Source: Candidatus Tumulicola scandinaviensis (GTDB lineage: Bacteria; Vulcanimicrobiota; Vulcanimicrobiia; Vulcanimicrobiales; Vulcanimicrobiaceae). From it: DNA of 34,735 nt. The translations under genes were made by a program, and so were the position numbers. Numbering within the stretch: the stretch's first letter is position 1; each line of letters begins with the position of its first letter. This document shows positions 1,938-16,160 of this stretch, in pieces. The stretch is from positions 42,999-77,733 of the forward strand of contig PLLA01000036.1 of the NCBI GenBank assembly GCA_003140835.1. Reading direction: 5' to 3'. The notes under the pieces were generated by a model. That model was given only the letters and a program-made list of their open reading frames with translations, made no database searches and was not told the DNA's origin.

Positions 1938-3098
1938 TCAGCGCAAGCTGTCTAGTGTGGCAAAGAACGCGTCGACTTCGTCGTCGGTCGTGTAAAAGTG
2001 CGGGCTCACGCGAATGCCGCACCCCGGACGGTAGTCGAGAAACACGCGGCGCGCGATGAGTTCGCGGCAGACTCGATCGGAACCGTCGAAATCGATGCCG
2101 ATCCAACCGGTTCGCCGGTGCGGTTCCAGCGGCGTGTTGACGCGCAGACCGCGTTCGAGTGCCATTGCCGCGATCTTCGATGTAAGGCGCACGTTGTGTT
2201 CGCGAATGCGCGCCACGCCGATCGAGCGAATCAGATCGTGTCCGGGTTTGGCCACCACGTAGCCGGGAATCGTCGGCGTGCCGTGGCCCCAGCGGTACAT
2301 CGAGTCGGAGAATTCGGTCGGAGCCGCTTCGAAAGCGAACGGACGGGCGTGTGCCATCCAGCCGGTTACCGCCGGCCGAAAGCGTTGCAGCAGCGACGGT
2401 TTCACGTAGATCCAACCGCAGCCGGGACCGCCGCATAGCCACTTGTGCGATCCACCCGTCACCAGGTCGAGATCCCAGTCGGTGACGTCGTACGGATAGA
2501 TACCGGTCGTCTGATACGCGTCCACGCACAACAGGGCGCCGACGTTGCGGCAGTGCGCTTGGATCGTACGAATGTCGGCGACGGCGCCGGAAACGTAATA
2601 GGCGTGCGACAGCACGGCGATGGCCGTCTTTTCGGTGATCGACTCCACGATACGTTCGGTCGGAATCGTGCGCCCGTCGTCGGACGGAACGACGCGCACG
2701 GCGGCGCCGTAGCGCTCCCACTCGCGCCACACATACGTGAGCGACGGAAACTGGAGCGACTCGTAAACCACCTCGTTGCGCTCGCCGGCAAAATCGATAC
2801 AGGTTGCGAGCGCGGCCTGCAACACCGACACGTTCGGACCGAGAAAGACGCTGCCCGGCGAAGCGCCGACGATCGCGCCGATCCCGTCGGCGATTTCGCC
2901 GATGCTCGGTAACCAATTCTCCCACGCTTCGGGACCGTCGGCTGCCCACTGCTCCCAATATCGGTCGAGCGCCGACTTCGCGGCGAGCGGCGCGGCGCCC
3001 ATTGAATGGCTCACCAAGTACGTCGAATTCGCCAGAATCGGAAACTCGTCGCGCCGCACGGCGTGCGTCGTAGTCACCGGACGAAGATCTTCAAGCAT
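1938..3098 (-). CDS. Kynureninase-like PLP-dependent enzyme (aminotransferase class V fold)
   Basis: This 386-residue fold-type I PLP enzyme has Asp193 in CVDAYQTTG (pairs with the pyridine nitrogen) and the Schiff-base lysine Lys219 in GGSHKWLCGGPGCGW. The N-terminal YLVSHSMGAAP corresponds to the YLDGNSLG region of kynureninases. With tryptophan 2,3-dioxygenase directly upstream, the likely reaction is cleavage of kynurenine to anthranilate and alanine. No formamidase gene is seen, so the pathway is incomplete here. I use the ATG at 3098, which overlaps the dioxygenase stop by eight bases with GGGAAGAG upstream, rather than a TTG at 3116. Function is supported by family and neighbour; another class-V activity is possible. 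Confidence 0.78.
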   Translation of the reverse strand: MLEDLRPVTTTHAVRRDEFPILANSTYLVSHSMGAAPLAAKSALDRYWEQWAADGPEAWENWLPSIGEIADGIGAIVGASPGSVFLGPNVSVLQAALATCIDFAGERNEVVYESLQFPSLTYVWREWERYGAAVRVVPSDDGRTIPTERIVESITEKTAIAVLSHAYYVSGAVADIRTIQAHCRNVGALLCVDAYQTTGIYPYDVTDWDLDLVTGGSHKWLCGGPGCGWIYVKPSLLQRFRPAVTGWMAHARPFAFEAAPTEFSDSMYRWGHGTPTIPGYVVAKPGHDLIRSIGVARIREHNVRLTSKIAAMALERGLRVNTPLEPHRRTGWIGIDFDGSDRVCRELIARRVFLDYRPGCGIRVSPHFYTTDDEVDAFFATLDSLR

Positions 3099-3870
3099 AG
3101 CTCGTGCTCTTCCCAAGGTACGTGCGCACGTTCCACAGCTCCGGAAAAATCCGATTGTCGAGCGTGCGCGCGAGATAGTTCACACCCGCCGAACCTCCGG
3201 TGCCTATTTTGTGCCCGATCATTCGTTCGACCATGCGGATGTGGCGTCCGCGCCAAAGCAGCAGACGCTCGTCGAACTCGATCAAGTCTTCTAGCAACAG
3301 GTGGAGGTCGTAGTAGGTATTCTCGTCGGTGTAGATTCGGCGAAAGCTTTCGAGCACGTCGTCGCTGGAATCGACCGCGAACCCGCGCCGGCGCAAGAGA
3401 TCTTTAACGTGGTCGTAGAGCGATGGCGCGTTCAAGCGGCCCTCGAGGCGCGCGCGCGCCGCGGCGTCGAGCTCGATGTGTTTCATCACCTCGGCGTTGC
3501 GTAAGCCGCAGGCGAACTCGAGCTCTCGGAATTGCACGGACTGAAAGCCGCTGGCCGGGTTGAGATTATCGCGGAACTGGTTGAACTCTTGCGGCGACAT
3601 GGTCTCCAACACGTCGATTTGCTGCTCCAGGAGCCGCTGGATCGTGTGAATGCGGCGAAAATACTTGGCGACCCGCAGCAGCTCGTCGCGGTCGATCGCG
3701 CCCACGGCCGCATCGAGTTCGTGCAAGAGCTGCTTGAACCATAGCTCGTACACTTGGTGAATGACGATGAACAGCATCTCGTCGTGATGCTGCGGTTGCG
3801 AAAGCGGACGTTGGAGGGCCAGTAGCCCGTCGACGTTCAGGTAGGAGCCGTACGAGAGACGTTCGCTCAG
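3091..3870 (-). CDS. kynA: Tryptophan 2,3-dioxygenase
   Basis: This haem enzyme opens the indole ring of L-tryptophan to N-formylkynurenine. The N-terminal LSYGSYLNVDGLL, the distal-His segment FIVIHQVYELWFKQ, the proximal-His segment WRGRHIRMVERMIG and the substrate loop GTGGSAG all match the family, as does FPELWNVRTYLG at the C terminus. The first ATG (3777) would cut off the conserved N-terminal SYGSYL segment. Upstream in frame there is no ATG, GTG or TTG, but a CTG at 3870 lies seven bases after a perfect AGGAG that itself overlaps the stop of the upstream inhibitor gene. I therefore propose a CTG start (259 aa, normal for short bacterial enzymes). The kynureninase-like gene overlaps its 3' end by eight bases. 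Confidence 0.9.
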   Translation of the reverse strand: MSERLSYGSYLNVDGLLALQRPLSQPQHHDEMLFIVIHQVYELWFKQLLHELDAAVGAIDRDELLRVAKYFRRIHTIQRLLEQQIDVLETMSPQEFNQFRDNLNPASGFQSVQFRELEFACGLRNAEVMKHIELDAAARARLEGRLNAPSLYDHVKDLLRRRGFAVDSSDDVLESFRRIYTDENTYYDLHLLLEDLIEFDERLLLWRGRHIRMVERMIGHKIGTGGSAGVNYLARTLDNRIFPELWNVRTYLGKSTSYA

Positions 3871-4330: not shown

Positions 4331-5026
4331 ATGAAGCTCAGGGTTTTGGGGTGGATCGCGGCGGCGGTCTTATTGGCTGCGGCCGGATGTTCCGGCGGTA
4401 ATCGCGGCGGAGGTTCCAGCGGCGGACCGTCGCCCAGCGCCACCGATCCGGTCGACTTCCCCCTGTTCGCGGGCGCCTCGGTGCTATCGGCGCGCGCGTG
4501 GCAGCAAACCATATCCGCGCGTCCCGGTGTCGGCGACAACGCGCTGCTCACGCAAGGTGCCGGAACGTACGACGGCCACGACGTCGTCGCCGGCACGCAG
4601 GCCCTCATGCCGGCCCTCGAAGCGTGGTTGGACGATCTCGACGCGCATCCGCCGCAAGGATACGCCTCGGTCGTTCACGGCGGCGGCGTCGATGCCGTGC
4701 GCTCGCATACGCGCGATCTCGGCGTCGACTTTGCGGTGTTCGAACGGATCGAAAGCGGGAAGCGCCACGATGTCGTCGTGCTCGCGGTCGACCCGCAAAC
4801 GCTCGACGCGAAAGCCGGGCCGATGATCGGTGTAGTCGGCAAATTTAGATTGCTGCCGCAATCGCTGCGCGACTCCATCGACGCCCAAGCAAAAAAGCAA
4901 ACCGGATTTACGATCTCCGAAGCGACGAACCCCGACACGCCGATCGGCGCCGCCGTCGGCGCGCTGGCGCAGCTGCGCGATTTCGGCGGGCGCGGGGTCG
5001 TGCTCATCGACGCCGTTAAACGGTAG
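4331..5026 (+). CDS. Lipoprotein of unknown function
   Basis: From the ATG at 4331 the protein begins MKLRVLGWIAAAVLLAAAGC, a clear lipoprotein signal with lipobox LAAAGC, followed by a Gly/Ser-rich linker. A GTG at 4286 would add 15 residues before the signal and is rejected. The mature part (about 205 residues) has no motif I recognise. It contains an acidic, His-containing central region and a C-terminal segment resembling a small alpha/beta domain (VGALAQLRDFGGRGVVLID). It is divergent from the inhibitor operon and ends two bases before the TTG start of the permease-acyltransferase gene, suggesting one transcript with that gene. Confidence 0.7.
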   Translation: MKLRVLGWIAAAVLLAAAGCSGGNRGGGSSGGPSPSATDPVDFPLFAGASVLSARAWQQTISARPGVGDNALLTQGAGTYDGHDVVAGTQALMPALEAWLDDLDAHPPQGYASVVHGGGVDAVRSHTRDLGVDFAVFERIESGKRHDVVVLAVDPQTLDAKAGPMIGVVGKFRLLPQSLRDSIDAQAKKQTGFTISEATNPDTPIGAAVGALAQLRDFGGRGVVLIDAVKR

Positions 5027-5028
5027 CG

Positions 5029-7389
5029 TTGCCCGTCGGATCGAACCGGCTCCGCGAGATCGGCTCGTGGATCGTCCTCAACGCGCTCTGGATTCCGCTG
5101 ACGTTTCAAGATGCCGCATTGATGACCATCGCCGTGCCGGCGGCGCTATTGGAATTGGCACCGGCGTCGCACGTGATCGTGCTGTCAGGGCTGGCCAGTA
5201 TCGCGGCGCTCGGGGCCATGGTGGTTCCTCCGCTCGCAGGGTGGCTCTCGGATCGCATTCGCCGCGGCGGGGGCGGCCGCCGCGGATTCGTGGCGATTGG
5301 ATTGGCGATGGACGTGGCGGCGCTTATAGCGCTGGCATTTTCGCATACGCTCGTCTCCTTTGCCGCTTGTTTGGTGCTTGCGATCGTCGGTTCGAACGTA
5401 GCGTTGGCGGCCTATCAAGTTTTACTACCCGAGTTGGTGCCGCGCGCGAAGTGGGGTGCGGTTTCGGGAATCCGCGGCGCCGCCAGCCTGGTTGGAACGA
5501 TCTTGGGCCTGGGCGTCGCGGGCGTCGTTCCGGCCCCTAGCTACACGTTCGTCGCTACCGCCGTCGTCATCGTCGTCTGCGCGCTGTCACTGTTTTGGGT
5601 CCACGAAACGCAGTGGGAAGAACCCGATCGGGCGCACGTTCGCGATTGGCACGACTTCGCGATCGTCTTCGCCGCTCGGGTGCTGGTCTTCTTCGGCTTG
5701 GTCTTACTGCAAACGTTCGTGCTGTACTATTTTCGCGACATTCAGGGGCTGCCCAATGCCTCGCTAGGCACGGCGATTGCCGCCTTCTGTACCATGATCG
5801 GCGCAACTGCATCGTCGGTGTACTTGGGAATTCTTTCGGATCGGGCGCCGCGTAAGATCGTTACGGCGTTGGCATGCGTGCCGATGGCTATTGCCGCTAT
5901 CGGATTCGCCGTCGCACCCGCTCCGCAGTGGATCTTTCTCTACGCATTCCTGTTCGGAATTGGATTCGGCGGCATATTTTCGAGCGGATGGGCGCTCGCT
6001 ATGGATAGCATCCCGGCGATGCGCGACGTCGCGCGCGATTTAGGCTTATGGGGCGTCGCCTCGCACTTGCCCAACGTCTTCGCGCCGCTGATCGGCGGCT
6101 GGCTCATCGCCGCATTTCACGGAGCGCGCTCCGGATATCAAGCCGTCTTCGCCTTAGCCGGTTTGAGCTTCGCGCTGGCCGCCCTCACCGTGTTGCGCGT
6201 CGGCCGGACGCCGGTCTCGTCGTTGTGGGGATGGCCTGTCAGAGTGGCCGCGAACGTGGCCAACTACCTTTGGGTCCACGTCGCGTATCGCGTGCGGCAC
6301 TGGGGAAACTTTCCGCGTCGCCGCGGCCCAACCGTAATCGTCGCCAACCATATGCACGATCTCGAGTCGATGACGATCGTCAGTACGATGTTCGTAACGC
6401 GCAGCTCGTGGCGCCATCCGATCTTTACGGCGGCCTCGCGCCGCATGTACGAACCCGGCTTCCTGGCAGCGCGGCTGCCGTGGTTGCGATTCTTGCTGCG
6501 GCGCGTCAACGCCGGGCCGCTCTTCTTGGTGCTGGGGCTGCTGCCGCTGGAAAACGAACTCAGCTCGCGGCTAATCTCAGGGCTGGCATGGTCGCTGCAG
6601 CGCGTACACGGCCCGCTGCTGATGAGCGACGTTTTCGACGATCGCGTTTCCGGCCAATTCCCACCCGGTACCAAAACCACCGACCTCTTACGTTCGGACC
6701 TTTTCGGCAAGGCGAACGCCACCGTAAGAGTTGCGGCGCTGCGCGAGCCGTATCGTCGCGAGATACTCGATGAGACGCGACGGTTTATCGAGGCCGACTT
6801 AGCGCGGATGGAGAGCGTGGTCCGGCGGGGCGCGACGTTTTATGTTACGCCGGAAGGCCGCTACTCGATCGACGGCAAGATCGGACCGATGCGCGGGGCG
6901 ATCGATCGCCTGGCGCCGCGCGCGACGATCTATTTAGCGGGTGTGAGCTACGATCCGTTCGTGGCGAAGCGGCTCTCGATGCTGTTTCGCATCGTGCGGC
7001 TCGACGATCGGGCGCGTATGGTGAGTGCGCTGGCGGCGATTCGTCCGGTCACCACCAGTCACGTACTGTCAGCATGGTTGGATGGCCGGACTGCGGAGTT
7101 TACGCAGGCAGACGCGCTTGCCGGCGTCGAGCAGCGGCTATGCGCGTTGCCCGCCGAACTGTTTGTGGATCCCGAGCTTCAAAGGAATGCCGCGCGCTTG
7201 GTTCGCGCCGCGCTCGCGCACATGCTCGAGTGGAAGATCCTCGAGCCGGCGGGGCGAGGGTATCGATTGGCTTCCGAGCGGCATCATCCGCAGTTTCCGC
7301 AGGTCGCCGATATCGTGGCCTTCAACGCGCGCTTTCTCGAAGAAACGATCGCGAACGCCGAGGCCGTTAACGCCGTGTCGGAATTATGA
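5029..7389 (+). CDS. MFS-type permease fused to PlsC-like acyltransferase
   Basis: The 786-residue protein has two parts. Residues about 15-395 form a 12-helix major-facilitator permease with the loop-2 motif GWLSDRIRRGGGGRRG. Residues about 425-650 resemble glycerolipid acyltransferases: NHMHDLES near 438 corresponds to the catalytic NHxxxxD block, but the acidic residue is Glu, and PEGRYSIDGKIGPMRGA near 606 is the phosphate-binding EGTRS-type block. About 130 C-terminal residues resemble a helical or winged-helix tail. The order recalls LplT-Aas fusions, which flip lysophospholipid inward and reacylate it at the inner membrane; that role is inference. The start is TTG at 5029, two bases after the lipoprotein stop. 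Its end overlaps the convergent alkyltransferase-like gene by six bases. Confidence 0.8.
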   Translation: MPVGSNRLREIGSWIVLNALWIPLTFQDAALMTIAVPAALLELAPASHVIVLSGLASIAALGAMVVPPLAGWLSDRIRRGGGGRRGFVAIGLAMDVAALIALAFSHTLVSFAACLVLAIVGSNVALAAYQVLLPELVPRAKWGAVSGIRGAASLVGTILGLGVAGVVPAPSYTFVATAVVIVVCALSLFWVHETQWEEPDRAHVRDWHDFAIVFAARVLVFFGLVLLQTFVLYYFRDIQGLPNASLGTAIAAFCTMIGATASSVYLGILSDRAPRKIVTALACVPMAIAAIGFAVAPAPQWIFLYAFLFGIGFGGIFSSGWALAMDSIPAMRDVARDLGLWGVASHLPNVFAPLIGGWLIAAFHGARSGYQAVFALAGLSFALAALTVLRVGRTPVSSLWGWPVRVAANVANYLWVHVAYRVRHWGNFPRRRGPTVIVANHMHDLESMTIVSTMFVTRSSWRHPIFTAASRRMYEPGFLAARLPWLRFLLRRVNAGPLFLVLGLLPLENELSSRLISGLAWSLQRVHGPLLMSDVFDDRVSGQFPPGTKTTDLLRSDLFGKANATVRVAALREPYRREILDETRRFIEADLARMESVVRRGATFYVTPEGRYSIDGKIGPMRGAIDRLAPRATIYLAGVSYDPFVAKRLSMLFRIVRLDDRARMVSALAAIRPVTTSHVLSAWLDGRTAEFTQADALAGVEQRLCALPAELFVDPELQRNAARLVRAALAHMLEWKILEPAGRGYRLASERHHPQFPQVADIVAFNARFLEETIANAEAVNAVSEL

Positions 7390-12670: not shown

Positions 12671-13846
12671 TTAGCGTCTGGCCGGTAGAACGATCCTCAT
12701 CGTCGTCCCCAATTCCGGCTGCGTCTCGATGTGCACGTCCAGGGCCAGCGATCCAATCAAGAACAGTCCCCGTCCGTTTTCGTTCAAAGCGTCGACCGGT
12801 AGCGCCGGCGTGACGCGCGACAGGCCCGGACCGGCATCGCTGACGGTGACCACTGGGTGAGTCTCGGTCCAGTCGATGTCGACGCGTACGGCGCCCGGCG
12901 CGTGCTCGACGGTATTGGCAAGCAGTTCGCCGACGACGAGCTCGGCGCGGAAGAGCTCCTCTTCGGTCGGGGAAAAGGAGCGGATGAAGTGCGCGATTTC
13001 GTGCCGAAGCGCGTGCGCGTCGTGCGAGTTCCTCGAATCGTAGCTCCAGGATCGTTGAAGCACCACGCCGACCTGCGCGATCAAGAGCACCGTATCGTCG
13101 GCCGGCCGTTCGGCTCCCATGACGCTGCGCTGAACGTATCTCGCCGGCCGTTCGATGCTGGGGTCGGCGACCAGTTGCGCGACCGCTCGCAGGACGGCCG
13201 CCTCCGCGCGGTCGATGTCCCGATTGAACTCGGTGAGCCCGTCGGTGTAGAAAAGAACCACGGAGTTATGCGCCAACGCGGCCGAATGCGACTGGGTTAC
13301 GAGCGGAACGCCGACGCCGAAGGGCACGCCGCCGTACGCAAGCACGTGCGCAGGCGTGCCGGGTGCCGCGAGGATTGGTGGCGGATGACCGGCGCTCGCG
13401 TAGCTCAACGTCGATAGATCCCGGCTGAGGATGGCCACCAACGCGGTCGCCGGAGTATTTGGTTGCGACTGTAACATCCGGTCCGCCTTGATGAGGATCT
13501 CGGCAGGGTCTTTGGCATCGAAGGCCGCGGCAAAGATTCCTTGGCGCAGGCGGGCGGCGGTAACGGCAGCCTCGAGGCCGTGCCCGGTGACGTCACCGAT
13601 TGAAAAGACGACCCGGCCGTCGGGCAGATCGAATGCGTCGTACCAGTCGCCGCCGATCAGCGCCTCGCGCTCCGCGGCGATATAAAGCGCGTCGCATCGT
13701 AAACCCGGCCGTTGTGGGAGTCTTTCGGGAAGAAACGCGCCCTGGAGAATATCGGCCGATCGTTTCGTTTGATCCAATAGCGCTTGTAGCTCGATGCGCG
13801 CCAGGCGCCGTTCGGCAACCGTTGCTGGTTGGCCCGAGGAGGGCAA
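12671..13846 (-). CDS. SpoIIE/PP2C-type phosphatase with C-terminal HATPase domain, N terminus probably lost
   Basis: A short coiled coil (AERRLARIELQALLDQTKR) leads into an RsbU/SpoIIE phosphatase domain (GGDWYDAFDLPDGRVVFSIGDVTGHG, later FYTDGLTEF and DDTVLLIAQ). A serine-kinase-type HATPase domain follows (VVGELLANTVEHAPG, VSDAGPGL, NGRGLFLIG). Such proteins switch anti-sigma/anti-anti-sigma partners. Family members usually carry a sensor (PAS, GAF or receiver) in front of the coil; here none exists. Homology starts at about 13819, exactly where the frame changes from a nitroreductase fragment. The start given (TTG 13846) is tentative; an ATG at 13939 would add residues that are an out-of-frame reading of that fragment. 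It may be a truncated remnant. Confidence 0.72.
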   Translation of the reverse strand: MPSSGQPATVAERRLARIELQALLDQTKRSADILQGAFLPERLPQRPGLRCDALYIAAEREALIGGDWYDAFDLPDGRVVFSIGDVTGHGLEAAVTAARLRQGIFAAAFDAKDPAEILIKADRMLQSQPNTPATALVAILSRDLSTLSYASAGHPPPILAAPGTPAHVLAYGGVPFGVGVPLVTQSHSAALAHNSVVLFYTDGLTEFNRDIDRAEAAVLRAVAQLVADPSIERPARYVQRSVMGAERPADDTVLLIAQVGVVLQRSWSYDSRNSHDAHALRHEIAHFIRSFSPTEEELFRAELVVGELLANTVEHAPGAVRVDIDWTETHPVVTVSDAGPGLSRVTPALPVDALNENGRGLFLIGSLALDVHIETQPELGTTMRIVLPARR

Positions 13847-14213
13847 GCTCCACTGCGCGTGCGAGCAGCTCGCGATGCACCGGGTAATCAAGGAAGCCGT
13901 TTGCCGTTCGGGCCTCGAGAAAGATCGTGCGTAGCGCACGCTCGTCGAGTTCTCGGGATGCCTTGAGGTCGACGATCTCGTCCGTCGTCTGGATCATGGT
14001 CGCGTCGTAGATGCCGCTGGCGGCGTCGGCGCCGGGGGATGTCTCGGTTTCGTGCGAGAGCACCTGGTGAGGAAGGCGATGTTTGGCGAGGTCCCGGTTG
14101 GTGACCGTCGGGTCAGGTGAGGCTTCGCTGAGCCGGTCGACAACCCGAGCGGGCAGCCGGCGGCTTAGCGCTTCGTCTCTGGCAGTACTCGCGTCGATGT
14201 GAAGTGCGTTCAT
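13818..14213 (-). pseudogene. Chimeric remnant: azoreductase N terminus joined in frame to RutE-type nitroreductase N terminus
   Basis: One frame starts at ATG 14213 with AAAGGA upstream. Residues 1 to about 85 resemble the N terminus of FMN-dependent NADH-azoreductases: LHIDASTARDEALSRRLPAR, then NRDLAKHRLPH, then TTDEIVDL. Residues about 86-132 match the start of RutE-like nitroreductases: LDERALRTIF, ARTANGFLDYPV and LALLGPTSNG (E. coli RutE has ARTHNGW and GPTSAN at these places). Both enzymes normally exceed 190 residues, so each is a front-end piece. At about 13818 the homology stops and, in another frame, the phosphatase begins. Either deletions fused three genes or the assembly is chimeric. 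The divergent TetR gene would suit regulation of such reductases. Confidence 0.7.
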
Positions 14214-14255
14214 GGGGGAGTCCTTTCCTAGGCCGGGGTTACTAGACTACGGATG

Positions 14256-14284
14256 TTGCCTAAACCGCTGGTGTTGTGTATACT
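14256..14284 (+). promoter_or_regulatory. Sigma-70-type promoter of the tetR gene
   Basis: TTGCCT (14256-14261) and TATACT (14279-14284) are separated by 17 bp, matching consensus at four and five of six positions. Transcription would start near 14291, at the edge of the inverted repeat described next. Confidence 0.6.
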
Positions 14285-14290
14285 ACTTGC

Positions 14291-14313
14291 GTCGGTCGGC
14301 CAAGTCAACCGAC
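14291..14313. promoter_or_regulatory. Probable TetR operator
   Basis: GTCGGT and ACCGAC form a perfect inverted repeat with an 11-bp spacer, just downstream of the predicted -10 box and 43 bp before the tetR ATG. The position suits repression of the gene itself and of the divergent azoreductase remnant. Confidence 0.5.
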
Positions 14314-14356
14314 AAACCTGCGAACTTGTTGCTTAGCCGACACTAACGGAAAACTG

Positions 14357-14905
14357 ATGACAACCAAGACCTTAGAAGAGCCTCGCGTCGATCCGCGAGT
14401 TATTCGCACGCAAAATCTGATTCGCGACGCATTGACGTCGCTGTTATCGGAGAAGAGTTTCGAGTCGACTAGCGTGCAAGACATCGCCGAACGCGCGACG
14501 GTGAACCGCGCGACGTTTTACGCCCACTTTCAGGATAAGTTCGCGTTGCTGGATGCGGTCATCCGCGGCGCTCTACGCCAGTACCTGTCGAAGGACGAGC
14601 CGATGGCATCTGACGTGCGCTCACTGCTTTCTGCCCTTGGGAAAAGCATATTCGGCTTTGTCACGGCGCATGGTAAGTGCAAGGTGGATCGCGATTTCGA
14701 GCCGCAGTTCGAGCGAGCGATGGAGGCCGAACTTGGCGAATTCCTAGCGCCAAGATTCAGCGCTTGCACCGCCCACGTGATCGCTACGGCCATGGTGGGC
14801 TCGGCCATGCGGTGGCGCGCCGGCGGGCGCAAGGAACCCGCGGATCAGCTCGTGCGTCAAATCGTCGACATTCTCTCTGATGGGGTCGCCAAGTCTCCGG
14901 CGTAA
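14357..14905 (+). CDS. TetR/AcrR family transcriptional regulator
   Basis: The 182-residue protein has an N-terminal helix-turn-helix domain (residues about 18-65). IRDALTSLLSEKSFESTSVQDIAERATVNRATFYAHFQDKFALLDAV is described here only by its key parts: VQDIAERATVNRATFYAHF is the recognition motif. The C-terminal half is the usual divergent ligand pocket. The ATG at 14357 is preferred to an upstream ATG at 14276 that would place the -10 box inside the gene. It diverges from the azoreductase remnant, consistent with control of a flavin-reductase or stress operon, probably with autoregulation through the inverted repeat at its transcription start. Confidence 0.88.
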   Translation: MTTKTLEEPRVDPRVIRTQNLIRDALTSLLSEKSFESTSVQDIAERATVNRATFYAHFQDKFALLDAVIRGALRQYLSKDEPMASDVRSLLSALGKSIFGFVTAHGKCKVDRDFEPQFERAMEAELGEFLAPRFSACTAHVIATAMVGSAMRWRAGGRKEPADQLVRQIVDILSDGVAKSPA

Positions 14906-15334: not shown

Positions 15335-15611
15335 CGTTTGGTTCGAGTTGAGCCGCGTGGCGCGTTAGCACGTTATAGGAGGGCTCGAACGGGGAAATCG
15401 CATGCACAGCAGACTTGAACTTTGTGGTCACTCCTGGGCAGTACGCCTCGCTCCGGCACTCCGAGCATCAGGATCAAAACCTTGGTTAACGCTGAGGCCA
15501 AAAAGCAACGAACACGTCCAAGGAGCCCCTGCGCCGGTCACGGCAGCGCCCGTAGGCGCCCCGTAACACGAGTTTCGGGTCAACTGCGACTTTTATAGCA
15601 GGCTTAGAAAG

Positions 15612-15635
15612 TGTCCGAAATGTACATTTGGGACA
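15612..15635. promoter_or_regulatory. Palindromic operator of the toxin-antitoxin operon
   Basis: A 24-bp near-perfect palindrome: TGTCC and GGACA arms around AAATGTACATTT, with only one symmetric pair mismatched. It ends two bases before the antitoxin ATG. The centre TGTACA is the core of the known yefM-yoeB operator, to which the antitoxin binds. Its position fixes the antitoxin start at 15638 rather than the GTG at 15611. Confidence 0.72.
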
Positions 15636-15637
15636 TT

Positions 15638-15904
15638 ATGGCTCTGGCCCCTACGATGGTCGCCGCGACCAAGCTCCGTGAGCACGGCAGTGAAATCATC
15701 AACAAAGTCGCTTATGGCGACGACGAAGTCATCCTGACCCGTCGCGGCAAACCCGTCGCGGCAGTGGTGTCGTTGAAGGCACTGGAAGCCCTCCATGCTT
15801 TTGAAGACGCACGTGATATTGCTGAGGCCGCTCGCGCCCGCCGGGAGATCAAGAAGCACGGGACCGTCTCTCATGACGAAGTGAAGGCGCGCCTCGGCTT
15901 ATAG
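15638..15904 (+). CDS. Phd/YefM-type antitoxin
   Basis: The 88-residue protein begins MALAPTMVAATKLREHGSEI and has the family core: INKVAYGDDEVILTRRGKPVAAVVSL, seen at residues 22-47 in overlapping parts (DDEVILTRRGKP, AAVVSLKALEAL). The N-terminal half binds operator DNA; the C-terminal helix (DIAEAARARREIKKHG) would wrap and neutralise the toxin. ATG 15638 follows GGGA and the palindrome. A frame for the RelE-type toxin follows after one base. Autoregulation with the toxin as co-repressor is expected from the family. Confidence 0.85.
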   Translation: MALAPTMVAATKLREHGSEIINKVAYGDDEVILTRRGKPVAAVVSLKALEALHAFEDARDIAEAARARREIKKHGTVSHDEVKARLGL

Positions 15905-15905
15905 G

Positions 15906-16160
15906 ATTGAGTTCGCGCCTACTGCAGCCAAGGCGCTAGAAAAGCTACCCGTTGCCGCCAGTAAGCGCATCTTTGCTAGAATCGATGCGTTGAGTTTAGA
16001 CCCGCGGCCGAACGGTGCAATAAGGCTCGCCGGCGGTACAGGTGAGTTGCGAGTGCGAGTTGGCCCTTATCGAATCATCTACGAGGTCAACGATGACGTC
16101 TTGCTCGTGTTGGTCTTGGTGATCGGCGACCGCAAGCAGGTCTATCGGCGACGAGGATAG
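15906..16160 (+). CDS. RelE/ParE-superfamily toxin lacking a canonical start codon
   Basis: Translation gives IEFAPTAAKALEKLPVAA, RIDALSLDPRPNG, RLAGGTGELRVRVGPYRII, YEVNDDVLLVLVLVIGDRK and a basic end QVYRRRG. This is a complete RelE-like toxin of about 84 residues with the Arg-rich, Tyr-containing C terminus used for mRNA cleavage. There is no ATG, GTG, TTG or CTG between the in-frame TGA at 15882 and the homology. Family members typically begin M-Y-R-I-E-F; here the Met position is GCT (15897) followed by TAT AGG ATT. Translation could start at ATT 15906, coupled to the antitoxin stop one base upstream, or the start has been lost and the toxin is silent. Confidence 0.78.
   Translation: MEFAPTAAKALEKLPVAASKRIFARIDALSLDPRPNGAIRLAGGTGELRVRVGPYRIIYEVNDDVLLVLVLVIGDRKQVYRRRG

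Follow-up and report, generated by a model that had tools for sequence, protein, structure and literature searches.

The apparent fusion of three gene pieces in a 34,735-nucleotide stretch of the Candidatus Tumulicola scandinaviensis genome (hereafter the window, by which we mean that whole stretch) very probably records two events: an inherited capture of an azoreductase-like leader by a rutE gene and, in the window genome only, a reciprocal exchange that cut both rutE and the gene for a MASE1-SpoIIE-HATPase phosphatase, with loss of both parents. The missing halves of the two genes adjoin each other on a second contig of the same genome, C11, and the composite therefore goes back to a single rearrangement of the chromosome; it is no gene of a new kind. 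What took place is of an ordinary sort, namely a leader capture that was inherited plus a single gene-breaking reciprocal rearrangement.

Layout of the composite

Runs of two Ns (C59:42997-42998 and 77734-77735) bound the window, which itself is a single stretch of scaffold C59 without gaps. The AzoR-like leader on its minus strand continues in frame into a RutE N terminus, behind which SpoIIE and HATPase domains follow out of frame (+1). The features are given below in window coordinates.

14357..14905, plus strand: TetR-family regulator gene, divergent from leader::rutE (PF00440, E 4e-13)
14291..14313, overlapping the -35 box: candidate TetR operator, an imperfect dyad of 23 bp, GTCGGTTGAC-TTG-GCCGACCGAC, from a four-genome alignment
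14280..14308, minus strand: sigma-70-like promoter TTGACT-17-TAGTAT, directed into the leader and conserved in palsa_1485 and G101
14221..14229, minus strand: Shine-Dalgarno-like AGGAAAGGA ahead of the leader ATG, read from the sequence
13998..14213, minus strand: AzoR-derived leader of 72 codons, with AzoR homology over about residues 1-57
13824..13997, minus strand: N-terminal 58 codons of a RutE-type nitroreductase gene, ending exactly at position 5276 of locus L032
13823..13824, minus strand: rutE/phosphatase breakpoint; the reciprocal breakpoint lies between C11:29686 and 29687 in the same genome
12671..13823, minus strand: SpoIIE (PP2C-type) and HATPase half of a MASE1-SpoIIE-HATPase phosphatase gene, +1 relative to the rutE frame
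13593..14213, minus strand: open reading frame from the leader ATG, continuing for 231 bases beyond the breakpoint in the wrong frame

A strong ribosome-binding site precedes the ATG at which the reading frame 14213-13593 opens. An Rfam search of the window gave no match, and when the window genome was searched at the DNA level with the whole composite, only the composite itself and paralogous phosphatases were matched. At 15611-16160, in the lower-GC part of the contig (54-58%), there is a small ORF pair resembling a Phd/YefM-RelE toxin-antitoxin module.

The AzoR-like leader and its cassette

The leader matches the Flavodoxin_2 profile (E 5e-6) over positions 1-54 of 198, a complete flavodoxin-like domain being absent from it, and its residues 3-50 match an FMN-dependent azoreductase (PDB 7awv, E 4e-5). 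Compared with FMN-dependent NADH azoreductases of the AzoR type, it keeps the first quarter only and lacks the flavin-binding and catalytic parts. AzoR homology stops near residue 50-57, and RutE homology extends back to residue 62-73, which gives a RutE piece of about 58 residues (13997-13824) and places the first junction near 14000. Three gene pieces are indeed fused on the minus strand, as an earlier note on this DNA had claimed, but the boundaries given there had to be moved: the AzoR part is shorter than the suggested 85 or so residues, the RutE part is longer than the suggested 47 or so, and the junction does not lie at 13959.

A search of 85,000 genomes with the leader and RutE piece found one locus, L032, in the metagenome-assembled genome palsa_1485 (Eremiobacterota), which belongs to another genus of the same family. 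This locus has the divergent TetR gene as well as intergenic region and leader, and one ORF of 245 amino acids (5001-5738) begins like AzoR and goes on to encode the whole of RutE. In a third genus (genome G101, locus L095), TetR gene and promoter region are likewise found, and RutE is intact after a leader of 19 residues. The leader thus comprises 72 codons in the window, 35 in L032 and 19 in L095, with RutE in frame in all three. An intact rutE, for which the earlier note had suggested looking in relatives, accordingly exists as a single complete ORF in both L032 and L095. The first junction was inherited in a mobile cassette and is no scar of the window genome. It recurs in a relative within an intact gene, which the second junction does not, and the claim that each donor gene is truncated at its junction holds for the second junction.

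In a fourth genome (G073, contig C111, locus L022), a TetR gene diverges from an azoR-like gene across a related intergenic region. The azoR-like ORF of this locus is 171 amino acids long, with internal stretches apparently lost in frame, and doxX-like and wrbA-like genes come next; azoR seems to decay repeatedly at this place. The simplest history would be that rutE captured the start and the promoter of azoR. In this older event, a gene for a RutE-type nitroreductase would have acquired the 5' end of an azoR-like gene as an in-frame start, together with its promoter and ribosome-binding site, within a TetR-regulated locus that moves among genera of the Eremiobacterota. The leader would then serve as the translated start of RutE and be expendable, shortened as it is in the relatives.

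The window TetR gene shares 92.5% DNA identity with that of palsa_1485 and 88.3% with that of G101, and the TetR and RutE pieces taken together (L032:4296-5738, L095 and window 13824-14905) are 84-95% identical among the three genera. Phosphatase identity between genera is 71-74%, and the DNA background outside the cassette lies at about 66-76%. In the same vein, dS amounts to 0.08-0.33 for the cassette and to 1.2-1.4 for the phosphatase. Since the cassette is more alike than phosphatase and background, it points to horizontal transfer between genera, and these comparisons indicate that transfer of the TetR and RutE cassette was recent. An IS110-like transposase ORF (2074-3168) is located about 1.1 kb from the cassette in L032.

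Complementary junctions on two contigs

The 3' part of the composite encodes SpoIIE (E 2e-34) and HATPase_c_2 (E 4e-15) domains, both complete and open, with intact motifs. The domain order is that of the Rv1364c-type SpoIIE/RsbU PP2C phosphatases with an RsbW-type HATPase, and the phosphatase part matches the structure 3ke6 (E 4e-22). The intact parent departs from this type by a membrane MASE1 sensor preceding these domains. The copy in the window is without this sensor and without a start of its own, both having been lost. The parent is represented by locus L035 in palsa_1485, where MASE1, SpoIIE and HATPase are directly joined in one open frame of 691 amino acids. The earlier description of the phosphatase as being without its sensor is therefore correct, because the intact orthologue of the same SpoIIE half carries MASE1, and the full-length phosphatase sought in relatives is at hand. 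Unlike in L035, the domains never share an ORF in the window genome: SpoIIE-HATPase resides in the window, and MASE1 (PF05231, E 2e-40) is found on C11 directly upstream of the RutE remainder, joined to it out of frame. The window genome contains neither an intact copy of the MASE1-phosphatase gene nor other relatives of the MASE1 sensor beyond the C11 copy. Our literature search yielded no paper in which both MASE1 and SpoIIE are named.

RutE is likewise spread over both contigs. Residues 85-133 in the window match the NCBIfam model for malonic semialdehyde reductase (RutE-like, NF003768) with an E-value of 6e-8. When the window genome was searched with a full-length RutE (L018), the N-terminal part was found in the window only and residues 77-229 were found once, at C11:29684-30142 (75% identity over these residues), the RutE remainder itself occupying C11:29687-30148; an intact rutE copy was not detected. 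Against NF003768, the N-terminal part in the window scores 32 bits and the C-terminal part on C11 193 bits (profile positions 51-199 only), while the intact RutE of L032 reaches 244 bits at a cut-off of 152 bits and L095 likewise has a complete RutE in a single frame. As neither half is a complete nitroreductase, RutE is lost. Both halves match the model of the RutE-type nitroreductases/malonic semialdehyde reductases (nearest solved relative IstO, PDB 7vqk). The relatives differ from this family by the extra leader, AzoR-derived in L032, and by the adjoining TetR gene, and the window-genome gene differs by being split.

The two contigs complement each other at the level of single bases. Window DNA matches L032 up to position 5276 and C11 matches it from 5277 onwards. 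C11 in turn matches L035 up to position 2324, the end of MASE1, and from the next residues the protein alignment resumes in the window with SpoIIE-HATPase. In the rutE parent, CCAACCAGC is directly followed by GCCAACGGG; at the window junction CCAACCAGC is followed by AACGGTTGCC, and at the C11 junction GGCGCAT is followed by GCCAACGGG. The rutE gene was cut without loss of any base, and the phosphatase gene is apparently about 1 base short, as judged by the 71-74% identical orthologue. The hybrid junctions of window and C11 thus jointly hold both parents, which stand unrearranged in relatives (L032 and L035 in one metagenome-assembled genome, and L095 for rutE). Comparison with these intact parents places the breakpoint between 13824 and 13823. 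The frame does change where phosphatase homology begins, as noted before, but not at 13819.

For the phosphatase, dS is 1.23 for MASE1 and 1.39 for SpoIIE-HATPase, and for rutE it is 0.08 for the C-terminal part and 0.17 for leader plus N-terminal part; the two halves of each parent share a level of divergence. All four gene pieces are free of stops, and in relation to the cassette transfer the break therefore looks recent. In this recent event, leader::rutE would have been cut after codon 58 of rutE and the MASE1-SpoIIE-HATPase gene between its sensor and its catalytic half. Crosswise rejoining of the ends would have yielded leader and RutE-N followed by out-of-frame SpoIIE-HATPase as the product in the window, and MASE1 followed by out-of-frame RutE-C as the product on C11. 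This is a case from an uncultured lineage in which base-level resolution extends to the two products of a single reciprocal break and the intact parents are known as well, and what appeared as a three-gene fusion resolves into an old, inherited capture of promoter and leader and a recent rearrangement. Annotations of 'orphan' SpoIIE-type phosphatases or 'orphan' MASE1 proteins in such genomes may stand for the halves of one broken gene.

Origin of the exchange and fate of its products

In principle, the junctions could stem from the assembly or from DNA loss, and the earlier note had offered mis-assembly and two deletions as its readings. Neither accounts for two matching products that lack a shared repeat. 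The junctions come from one draft genome, in whose 130 contigs N gaps of 2 bases occur elsewhere, and an assembly or library chimera, in which the assembler or an amplification step joined two unrelated loci, could be suspected. However, the two contigs would each have to contain a false join, made independently of the other and yet exactly complementary to it in position, and both joins would have to fall within gap-free stretches of more than 30 kb with no Ns nearby. Furthermore, no word longer than 8 bases is shared within 150 bases on either strand, so that a repeat of assembler word length is lacking, and the genome holds no intact copy of either parent. We thus regard a chimera as very unlikely. 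Two successive deletions fusing azoR, rutE and a neighbouring phosphatase gene deserve hardly any credence. The in-frame azoR-rutE fusion does resemble an old deletion or a promoter capture, and G073 retains TetR-azoR in the same setting, but the RutE remainder survives on C11, where the phosphatase's sensor half is joined to it, and the second junction is an exchange whose reciprocal product was kept there.

No sequence homology would have guided this double-strand exchange. Its simplest form would be end joining that inverted a segment, as crosswise rejoining within one circular chromosome would give an inversion. Ku is encoded in the window genome (E 4e-51). From the crosswise rejoining of distant breaks without homology and the presence of Ku, we infer end-joining inversion as the likely mechanism. 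Identical junctions would result if a large circular replicon with rutE on it had been integrated into the phosphatase gene by a single cross-over; C59 has a GC content of 54-58% beyond the TetR gene and of 63-64% on the phosphatase side, and a toxin-antitoxin-like pair lies beyond TetR, both of which would suit such an element. Yet C11 continues for 243 kb and C59 for 49 kb, so that the integrated circle would have to span about 290 kb or more, and GC is higher on C11 beyond the junction, so that the ends of the presumed island differ. We consider integration rather unlikely and favour inversion by end joining. In Helicobacter pylori, inversions by illegitimate recombination break or create genes (PMC3046158). 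The rearrangement described here is similar in that it proceeded without long homology and changed the genes at its borders, and it differs in that both borders are intragenic in the window genome and readable to the base.

Note that flanking gene order is little conserved in comparison with the congener G001, palsa_1485 and other relatives, and that GC skew is near zero throughout. A programmed site-specific inversion was rejected for want of inverted repeats: within 150 bases of the junctions, the inverted words that the two sites share are no longer than 8 bases. A cross-over in the AACGG shared just downstream of both junctions is not preferred either, because the reading frame of the phosphatase parent would then be broken.

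A promoter scan found two promoter-like sites compared with 0.3 expected. The dyad at 14291-14313, partly conserved overall and well conserved in palsa_1485, is a candidate TetR operator on the basis of its sequence. The catalytic half of the phosphatase now lies downstream of a TetR-type promoter, and to be made it would have to be started internally, where ribosome-binding signals are weak. None of the start codons in the phosphatase frame (GTG 13939, TTG 13777 and others) has a good ribosome-binding site. The reductase-leader-driven phosphatase envisaged in the earlier note cannot be one protein unless a +1 frameshift occurs. A transcriptional fusion of leader and phosphatase is possible, and a low level of the sensor-less phosphatase is conceivable. 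The expected outcome is loss of RutE and of the sensor-coupled phosphatase.

A working new regulator, that is, a sensor-less SpoIIE-HATPase made from an internal start under TetR control, would draw on complete and open SpoIIE and HATPase domains and on the conserved sigma-70-like promoter with its candidate operator upstream. We nevertheless judge it improbable, because no start in the phosphatase frame comes with a good ribosome-binding site, the upstream ORF overlaps the phosphatase for 231 bases in a different frame, and the arrangement is absent from any second genome. It is highly improbable that a soluble sensor-less SpoIIE-HATPase operates as a working circuit under a ligand-controlled TetR-type promoter; if it did, a chemical signal formerly meant for a flavin reductase would now drive sigma-factor partner switching. 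STAS proteins are the partners from which SpoIIE removes phosphate in the control of sigma factors (PMC8256260). In L032, a small STAS-like ORF (5739-6062) sits directly behind the intact leader::rutE gene, STAS proteins being the kind of partner on which SpoIIE-type phosphatases act.
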